Shown here: positions 8,238-52,074 of the stretch, in pieces
Layout: each line of letters opens with the position of its first letter
Numbering within the stretch: the first letter of the stretch is position 1
DNA from: Bacteroidota bacterium
GTDB taxonomy: Bacteria > Bacteroidota > Bacteroidia > UKL13-3
Direction: 5' to 3'
DNA length: 56,722 nt
Assembly: GCA_034439655.1 (NCBI GenBank)
Contig: JAWXAU010000031.1
Location: 1-56,722 of the forward strand
The notes under the pieces: model-generated
Database searches by the model: none
Told to the model about the DNA's origin: nothing
The model's input: the letters and a program-made list of their open reading frames with translations, nothing else
Program-made: the position numbers and the translations under genes

Positions 8238-9431
8238 TTATTTTTTACTTCCTACTACTAGTGCTCCAAACAAGGCAAATGCTGCTATGCCATTATGACT
8301 TTCCAAAACTGATTCGAACAAGAAAGCCGAACCAAATATTCCGATAACTGACAAAGCCAAAAAGGAACTTCCCCTGCCTTTGATGATGGTATATAATATA
8401 AAGATAAGTGATAATAAACCTATAATACCCAAACATGCCAACTGTTCTAGATATTGGTTGTGTGCTTCTTGCAACCGCACTTCTGGTCCTATTTTCTTTG
8501 TATCATAATGTGTAGTCATGGTGTTTGGTAAATCAGAAACGCCCACTCCAATTACAGGGTGCTCTTCAAATACTTTCCAGCATATTTTCCATGCTTCAAA
8601 ACGCATTGAAATAGAATAATAATTTAGATATTTCCCATTGAAATAGTGATCCATATCTTCAACGGTATTATCAATCCTATTCTTAAAACTTGTAGAAGTA
8701 TAATACCCCCCAATAGGAATTAATATAGCAGTAAGACCTAACAATAACGCAGTTTTCCATTGTTTTTTTACTACCACCAATTGTATTAGTAACAAAAATA
8801 AAGTAATATAAAAAGCAGCTAATCCTGTGCGAGAAGATAATATATGAAGGCAAACTAATAATATAATACTTGCAGCCAGCCACATTTTTTGTTTCCCCAA
8901 ACTGTTCCGCCATAGATGGAAACAAATTAAAACTACTAGGCCATTAAAAATGCTAAAGTATATATGTGATAGTCCAGATACAATGGGCATTCCCACTGAT
9001 TTGGTTATTTGTATATTTATCTCATCATAATGTATAAAATAATTTACCACGCTAGAAATTGCCACCAATAATACAGCCAAGCAAAAAGTAGTAAGGACAC
9101 TTTTTACCAACTGGGCGTTACACACTATAAGCCCGGCAGGGATCAGTATGAAAGATATTTTGCGGGTAACTTCTAATTGCCATTCAGGTATATCATCACA
9201 CCACAACCCACTTATAAGTTGCCAAAACCAATATAGTGCAAATGCAATATATATATTGTTTTTCCAATCTTTTGCATTGTTGAGTAATAGACCGCATAGA
9301 AAAAGTAATACAGCACCTAAACTCATTAAACCTGGGAAATGCCCCAACACTAAACCCGCAGCCACAGAGCAAGCAGCAATGGATTGAACAAATTTTATTT
9401 TTGATATGTGTGCGGGATTTGATAAAATCAC
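8238..9431 (-). CDS. O-antigen ligase-like (Wzy_C family) polytopic membrane protein
   Basis: 397 residues, mostly hydrophobic, with roughly ten or more membrane segments. A long extracytoplasmic loop (about 240-310) contains MRFEAWKICWKVFEEHPVIG and later LQEAHNQYLEQLACLGIIG, the His/Glu loop signature of WaaL/Wzy_C proteins. These enzymes join or polymerise polyprenyl-linked glycans on the periplasmic face. The start is GTG at 9431. It stands alone in this window, away from the glycosyltransferase cluster at 33-38 kb, although a functional link is possible. A structured RNA candidate lies upstream on the same strand but appears separately terminated. Confidence 0.85.
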   Translation of the reverse strand: MILSNPAHISKIKFVQSIAACSVAAGLVLGHFPGLMSLGAVLLFLCGLLLNNAKDWKNNIYIAFALYWFWQLISGLWCDDIPEWQLEVTRKISFILIPAGLIVCNAQLVKSVLTTFCLAVLLVAISSVVNYFIHYDEINIQITKSVGMPIVSGLSHIYFSIFNGLVVLICFHLWRNSLGKQKMWLAASIILLVCLHILSSRTGLAAFYITLFLLLIQLVVVKKQWKTALLLGLTAILIPIGGYYTSTSFKNRIDNTVEDMDHYFNGKYLNYYSISMRFEAWKICWKVFEEHPVIGVGVSDLPNTMTTHYDTKKIGPEVRLQEAHNQYLEQLACLGIIGLLSLIFILYTIIKGRGSSFLALSVIGIFGSAFLFESVLESHNGIAAFALFGALVVGSKK

Positions 9432-9546
9432 TCAGGCAAAAATAAGGGATTTAGGATTTAGGAATGAAGTTAAATCATAATTTGCCGCAGCGGAATAAAT
9501 CATTATCCGCCGCGGCAGAAAAATTCATTCAATCATTCAATAAAAA

Positions 9547-9720
9547 CGGGGCCGGTAGAAAAATCCCATAATTAATAGGATTTGACCTCCGCCGTATCGC
9601 AACCTTCTACCGTTACACTCTTTCGAGCTCATTCCTACAAGTAGGCCGAAGCCTGGTTTTGTTACTTTGGTTCAGTCGGTATATGAATAGTGTTGAATTT
9701 TTCTTATACTCCAGCCCCGG
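9547..9720 (-). ncRNA. candidate structured non-coding RNA, ~174 nt, family unknown
   Basis: On the minus strand the transcript would start CCGGGGCUGG directly after a perfect -7 box. It would end CUACCGGCCCCG followed by UUUUU. The two ends pair over nine base pairs (CGGGGCUGG with CCGGCCCCG, one G-U). Inside are a GGC-UUCG-GCC hairpin, a CUC-GAAA-GAG hairpin, a CUUG-capped CCUA/UAGG option and an AAAUCC/GGAUUU hairpin. There is no convincing open frame. It lacks the signatures of tmRNA, RNase P RNA, SRP RNA and the riboswitches I know. Size and closed-end shape would allow a 6S-like RNA, but that is a guess. Confidence 0.6.
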
Positions 9721-9722
9721 CA

Positions 9723-9730
9723 CAAAAGTA
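9723..9730 (-). promoter_or_regulatory. -7 promoter box TACTTTTG for the structured RNA
   Basis: Exact TAnnTTTG on the minus strand. The predicted start, several bases downstream, falls at the first base of the closing stem of the RNA candidate. No clear -33 TTG. Confidence 0.55.
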
Positions 9731-9896
9731 ATGGATAATGGTTAATTATTAGCAGTTAATGCTGTGCGGCGGTATCCAATTGGGATCTTTATTATGCACT
9801 GATTTAGTAATGTCATTATTAATAGGCGTAAGCAACATTAACCCCTAATAATTAACCATTGTTACGTATTTTCGCAGAATAAAAAACAAAGCAAAA

Positions 9897-51920: not shown

Positions 51921-51926
51921 AAATCA

Positions 51927-52038
51927 TCTTATCAAGAAAGGCAGAGGGAAATGGCCCTGCGACGCCTTGACAACCTGTTCTAATTTATTTTAGAACAAGG
52001 TGCCAACTCCAACTCATGTAACAGTGAGATAGATAAGT
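51927..52038 (+). promoter_or_regulatory. SAM-I (S-box) riboswitch
   Basis: The closing stem is CTTATC with GATAAG. After it come AAGAAAGGCAGAGGGA and TGGCCCTGCGACGCC (P2 region with kink-turn and core), GACAACC, a P3 hairpin GTTCTAATTTATTTTAGAAC, GGTGCCAACTCC, and a P4 hairpin before GATAGATAAG. The order and conserved core match SAM-I. It precedes a cystathionine gamma-synthase and a homoserine dehydrogenase, as expected for methionine control. SAM binding should favour the downstream terminator. Confidence 0.93.
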
Positions 52039-52074
52039 TAGAAACAGTGAAACATATTTGTGTACAAGATATAT

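Follow-up and report, generated by a model that had tools for sequence, protein, structure and literature searches.

What kind of RNA is encoded on the minus strand between positions 9542 and 9719 of the 56,722-nt stretch of DNA analysed here (the window)? A preliminary description had presented it as an orphan structured RNA gene, possibly 6S-like or the founder of a new family. 6S RNA is a bacterial small RNA that idles RNA polymerase upon starvation and acts as a global transcription brake. With high confidence, the locus can be read as a divergent, ssrS-like 6S RNA gene from an uncultivated lineage of the Bacteroidia, a reading that takes in its fold and a proposed mechanism. The kind of RNA is itself a known one; what is new is a branch of 6S RNA missed by standard RNA databases, and a bridge that joins two Rfam families.

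The gene and its sequence elements

The coordinates, strand and elements first reported for this feature proved correct when checked against the sequence. The gene, delimited by its homologues with models R1, R2 and R3 and by a leave-out link to the Rfam 6S families, measures 178 nt including its U run (9542-9719; all the elements that follow are on the minus strand). Its ends are complementary over 9 bp. The 5' arm CGGGGCUGG (9711-9719) pairs with the 3' arm CCGGCCCCG (9547-9555) in a closing stem, P1, that outscores shuffled ends (p 0.005), and a terminator U run, UUUUU, follows at 9542-9546. Together, the 3' arm and the U run probably constitute an intrinsic terminator. An exact -7 promoter box of the Bacteroidota TAnnTTTG type, TACTTTTG, occupies 9723-9730, with TG between it and CGGGGCUGG. 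By itself TACTTTTG is unremarkable, with 14 copies within the window; a TAnnTTTG box, exact or one letter off, was found just 5' of the RNA in 37/37 homologues.

As had been noted, no open frame explains the RNA: none of at least 50 aa overlaps 9432-9896. ARAGORN and Rfam found no tRNA, tmRNA or other known family at the RNA locus, and the two structured-RNA matches in the window were a tRNA-Ser elsewhere and a SAM riboswitch (RF00162, 79.5 bits, plus strand, 51926-52039). The Rfam search proposed in the preliminary description was run at the gathering score and at E 10, and at neither level did a 6S or Bacteroidales-1 model match the window RNA. An E 10 match at a neighbouring hairpin was discarded as a chance hit of miRNA type. 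The minus strand folds better than its shuffles (z -2.43; 3/200 shuffles as good), and one copy of the RNA is present in the window's genome.

Relatives and the link to two Rfam families

When 58 related genomes were searched at the DNA level, 12 proved to contain a relative, and an alignment of 11 sequences (A1) gave model R1. In the window's family this model matched 33 of 64 genomes, most of them a single time and with E values from 1e-23 to 1e-38, and in a class-wide sample of 149 genomes it matched 13. The joint model R3, used with a cutoff of E <=0.01, matched 52 of the 149 class genomes, of which about half were absent from training and 50 had a single copy. The RNA is therefore no orphan, and the lack of distant homologues that would have spoken against it was not observed. 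In a phylum sample, every match fell within the same class, one per genome. All these coverage counts are lower bounds, because in each genome the first-look filter scores only a small number of candidates. Among 84,980 species genomes, the core motif pattern was found in 37 stretches, all from assemblies titled Bacteroidota and all MAGs. One BLAST match (L012 in G022, 78% over 49 nt) was rejected as a chance A/T-rich match in a coding leader.

Neither R1 nor R3 detects a copy in about half of the genomes of the family, among them the single-contig G022, and the gap between zapA and rny contains none either. The copies of these genomes may be lost, extremely diverged or unassembled; such gaps would otherwise be odd for a housekeeping RNA. 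Two full copies were observed in G061 (L041, on contig C56, where the two are 12.7 kb apart) and in G139 (L044 and L055, on two contigs). By analogy with B. subtilis, these double copies could possibly be 6S-1/6S-2 pairs.

The link to known RNAs was obtained with model R2, built from 24 aligned loci that were found with the two Rfam Bacteroidota families and of which none belongs to the window's family. Many members of alignment A2 are sub-threshold Rfam matches, but they lie in the zapA-rny context and share helices, so that false members are unlikely. The best match of R2 in the window was 9535-9724 on the minus strand, end to end (model 1-194), with 32.8 bits and E 7.6e-6, and the runner-up was a terminator at 17.8 bits. 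R2 also placed the RNA correctly in other genomes of the window's family. In the reverse direction, R1 matched L082 at 52 bits. A permissive cmscan of R1 loci outside the family returned 6S-Flavo on L049 and L050 and Bacteroidales-1 on L048 and L052, in matches that were below threshold, full length, and in the right place and strand. Finally, R1 and the two Rfam families coincided at the same spots in G135, G199 and G155 among the 149 class genomes.

The RNA could also be a new and unrelated structured family, its likeness to 6S being convergent or an artefact of the models. Such a family would go well with a window RNA that has no Rfam match at any threshold and that aligns with Rfam 6S members in A5 at a mean column identity as low as 48%. 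It is nevertheless very improbable, since the leave-out model covers the RNA over its whole length and finds the shared motifs in unchanged order, independent models meet at identical genomic spots, and the joint alignment shows covariation in the same helices. At the Rfam thresholds, RF01693 was found in 4 and RF01685 in 0 of the same 149 class genomes, so these thresholds miss most homologues. Failure to reach them is a property of the models and not a biological defining feature.

Both Rfam families share much with the window RNA. 6S-Flavo (RF01685; Weinberg et al. 2010, PMC2864571) has the same motif order, with AACUCAACACUA in the 5' bubble and with (A)ACAGGCC, GUGGA/GUUGGAAGUU, UCAAAUCCU and GGAGUUU in common. 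However, its model leaves the window RNA unmatched and is devoid of the closing stem and of P1b, and its members lie between zapA and rny whereas the window RNA gene lies elsewhere. Bacteroidales-1 (RF01693, '6S-Bacteroidales suggested') has the architecture and core helices of the window RNA, with which its above-threshold members align in A5 and share P3 and P1b pairs. On the other hand, its model misses the window RNA, its bubble is of 20/15 nt against 17/17, and its 3' hairpin is weak or absent. A 6S RNA and its pRNAs have been observed experimentally in B. thetaiotaomicron (PMC7366714).

The canonical 6S model RF00013 matched 0/40 relatives, while controls including E. coli and B. subtilis were positive. 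For this reason, membership is claimed in the Bacteroidota 6S superfamily and not in RF00013. The E. coli 6S RNA ssrS (RF00013) resembles the window RNA in its closing stem, downstream helix, central bubble and apical arm, but no sequence or model similarity between the two was detected and R3 does not detect ssrS. Given this result and the missing Rfam match, synteny, anatomy and the intermediate families carry the link to canonical 6S RNA.

A covarying 6S layout and a predicted release switch

The closing stem was found in 37/37 homologues, at 7-14 bp, with varied letters and in nearly all of them with a T run after it; the arms were taken as the best stem per sequence, which biases toward 100% pairing, and the argument is therefore carried by the shuffle control and by the letter changes between homologues. 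Against shuffled ends, p was 0.001-0.015 across homologues. A closing stem without covariation had been named as a finding that would refute the proposal, and 5 of 7 pairs were found to change on both sides. Inside P1, the downstream helix P1b joins AGAAAAAUUC (9695-9704) to GGAUUUUUCU (9557-9566) over 10 bp. It is 91.3% paired, with a covariation score of 0.435 against 0.203 shuffled (0/500), and its counterparts elsewhere are GTAAACTC/GGGTTTAC, TTGAAAAATTC/GAATTTTTCAA and CAAACTTC/GAGGTTTG. A P1b register derived from the window alone was rejected because it is one column off for the majority, while the correct register is 91% paired.

The central bubble that follows has 17 nt on its 5' strand (9678-9694) and 17 nt on its 3' strand (9567-9583); in the 37 homologues of A5, these lengths are 17-20 nt and 15-21 nt, respectively. 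By comparison with other 6S RNAs, the 5' strand is the predicted template for the start of a product RNA. In the apical arm, stem P2 pairs GACU (9674-9677) with GGUC (9584-9587) and is 99% paired. Stem P3 joins AACC[AGG]CU (9650-9658) to AG[AA]GGUU (9601-9608), with C-G/U-A/G-C exchanges. Two P3 pairs are kept in 37/37 sequences of a joint set that includes above-threshold Bacteroidales-1 members, in A-U, G-C and U-A versions, and the joint-set score is 0.412 against 0.220 shuffled (0/500). Taken together, the apical helices show 95% pairing in 33 sequences; 13/28 pairs are changed on both sides, and the covariation score is 0.247 against 0.141 shuffled and <=0.082 slid.

Of the three small hairpins described earlier, two were retained in this arm. 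CCUA-CUUG-UAGG (9634-9645) is conserved in position with varying letters (CCCA..UGGG in a sister species), and GCUC-GAAA-GAGU (9617-9628) has a GCAA loop in a sister species and corresponds to a helix (helix 6) that covaries in the family. The third, a UUCG hairpin (9644-9653), is probably not real, because it uses bases of the CUUG stem and of helix P3b, which is conserved in 37/37 homologues; in sequences from outside the genus, the bases do not allow it. The plain minimum-energy fold, which contains the UUCG hairpin and a branched middle, was likewise rejected because its helices do not covary.

Comparison thus shows the predicted anatomy of the window RNA to be the 6S layout: P1, an A/U-rich downstream helix P1b, a bubble of about 17/17 nt and an apical arm. 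The general form of 6S RNAs is found throughout, with a length of 178 nt against about 180-200 nt, P1, P1b, the 17/17 bubble, P2/P3 and terminal hairpins.

A further element, the 3'-bubble hairpin AAAUCCUAU-uaauu-AUGGGAUUU (9561-9583, 9 bp), is a predicted release hairpin. Its energy is -7.6 kcal/mol (p 0.005), and p was <=0.05 in 13/13 sequences tested of the type of the window's family (f1). Within f1 it is mostly invariant and shows no covariation of its own. The hairpin uses letters of P1b, so the two are exclusive, and the energies of the two states are close: -52.8 kcal/mol for P1 with the 3' hairpin, which is slightly favoured, against -50.5 kcal/mol for P1 with P1b. In E. coli 6S RNA, the release switch is a 9-bp hairpin in which the 3' bubble pairs with the 3' strand of the downstream helix and which competes with that helix (PMC8876501). 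As read from the sequence, the layout of the window hairpin matches this switch. Several distant members do not form the hairpin, so more than one type of switch may exist across lineages, just as E. coli and B. subtilis have different ones.

The proposed mechanism borrows from the 6S RNAs of E. coli and B. subtilis, and binding of RNA polymerase and pRNA synthesis by the window RNA are inferred by analogy. From its own TAnnTTTG promoter, the gene would give an RNA of about 178 nt that ends at the terminator made by the closing stem. The bubble would mimic an open promoter and hold the housekeeping RNA polymerase holoenzyme. Once nucleotides are available again, the enzyme would copy the 5' bubble strand from 9694 to 9678 toward P1b, into a short product RNA expected to contain GUGUUGAAUUUUU. 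This synthesis would unwind P1b, and the freed GGAUUU could then pair with AAAUCC in the 9-bp 3'-bubble hairpin, upon which the RNA would be released.

A polymerase-binding RNA other than a true 6S RNA could have a similar look, for instance one that, like Ms1, binds the core enzyme without sigma and gives no product RNA. The Ms1 RNAs of Actinobacteria are abundant RNA polymerase binders that resemble 6S RNA in their fold and attach to the core enzyme (PMC9130861, PMC4191392), and core and holoenzyme binding are indistinguishable from sequence alone. Ms1 comes from another phylum, and no sequence feature links the window RNA to it. An RNA of this type is improbable here. The homologous Bacteroides 6S RNA yields product RNAs (PMC7366714), the zapA linkage of homologues matches that of ssrS, and the switch between P1b and the 3' hairpin is meaningful only with product-RNA synthesis.

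Gene neighbourhood and meaning for the Bacteroidota

Homologues of the 6S-like RNA lie between the cell-division gene zapA and rny (RNase Y) in 18 genomes of 10 other Bacteroidia families. Pfam identified ZapA and RNase_Y_N on L054, and RNase_Y_N also on L049. In E. coli, ssrS starts 41 bases after zapA on the same strand, next to the gene that also adjoins the homologues in the window RNA's relatives, and the synteny of zapA and 6S has been described in the literature (PMC9788540). The linkage is common and not universal for 6S: it was seen in these 18 homologous genomes and is absent in the window's family. There, zapA and rny still adjoin in the 15/15 genomes checked, and in all of them, including some without a model match, the gap is short and RNA-free by eye and with R3. 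The empty gap indicates that the RNA gene moved away from this ancestral place. Together with the leave-out covariance model and the covarying 6S fold, the zapA synteny of homologues supports the 6S-like identity that was first put forward as one of two options.

The window RNA gene lies between the gene of a T9SS-sorted protein and an O-antigen-ligase gene, and other genera have different neighbours. The ligase gene begins at 9431 on the same strand, about 110 nt downstream, and it also sits beside the RNA in one of the other two species of the genus, an arrangement that a cis-acting leader (riboswitch or attenuator) of the ligase gene would explain. This reading is rejected as extremely improbable because the neighbours vary: the RNA of the other sister species lacks the ligase as a neighbour, and in other genera the neighbours are unrelated. 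Moreover, the RNA terminates in its own stem and U run, and all homologues have a constitutive closing stem. The ligase gene pointed out in the preliminary description is thus indeed adjacent, but as a neighbour it is incidental, given the varying neighbours and the RNA's own terminator.

A large near-perfect inverted repeat (TTTGCCGCAGCGGAATAAATCATTATCCGCCGCGGC) was observed at 9481-9520, between the RNA and the ligase gene; the examined flanks in sister species do not contain it. Flavobacterial-type loci (L049, L050, L057, L061, L068, L078 and L084) carry a boxA-like motif, GTTCTTTGA/GTTCTTTA, 30-90 nt upstream of the RNA. The motif resembles that of rRNA leaders, and these loci have no -7 box at the stem, the opposite of the window's family. 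This suggests an antitermination-coupled, processed precursor in flavobacterial-type lineages. In one such genome, an Acido-Lenti-1-like match (L049:620-665, 30.7 bits, below threshold, E 0.003) was observed near a zapB-like gene.

Judging from the zapA neighbourhood in Bacteroidota, the link between zapA and 6S seems either to be older than the split from Proteobacteria or to have arisen twice. More broadly, and only tentatively, 6S-Flavo, Bacteroidales-1 and the unlisted branch might all be one Bacteroidota-wide 6S RNA, with a gene that in the unlisted branch left its ancestral zapA-rny home. An E. coli-like 9-bp release hairpin might have evolved in this branch independently of gamma-proteobacteria, and nearly half of the window's family may have lost 6S or hold unrecognisable copies. 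The two Bacteroidota models of Rfam miss nearly all copies, with 4 genomes against 52 by the bridging model among the 149 of the class. The competition between P1b and the 3'-bubble hairpin offers a release-switch model that is testable in culturable relatives, and a joined family would allow 6S RNA to be annotated throughout a phylum that is dominant in guts, lakes and seas.
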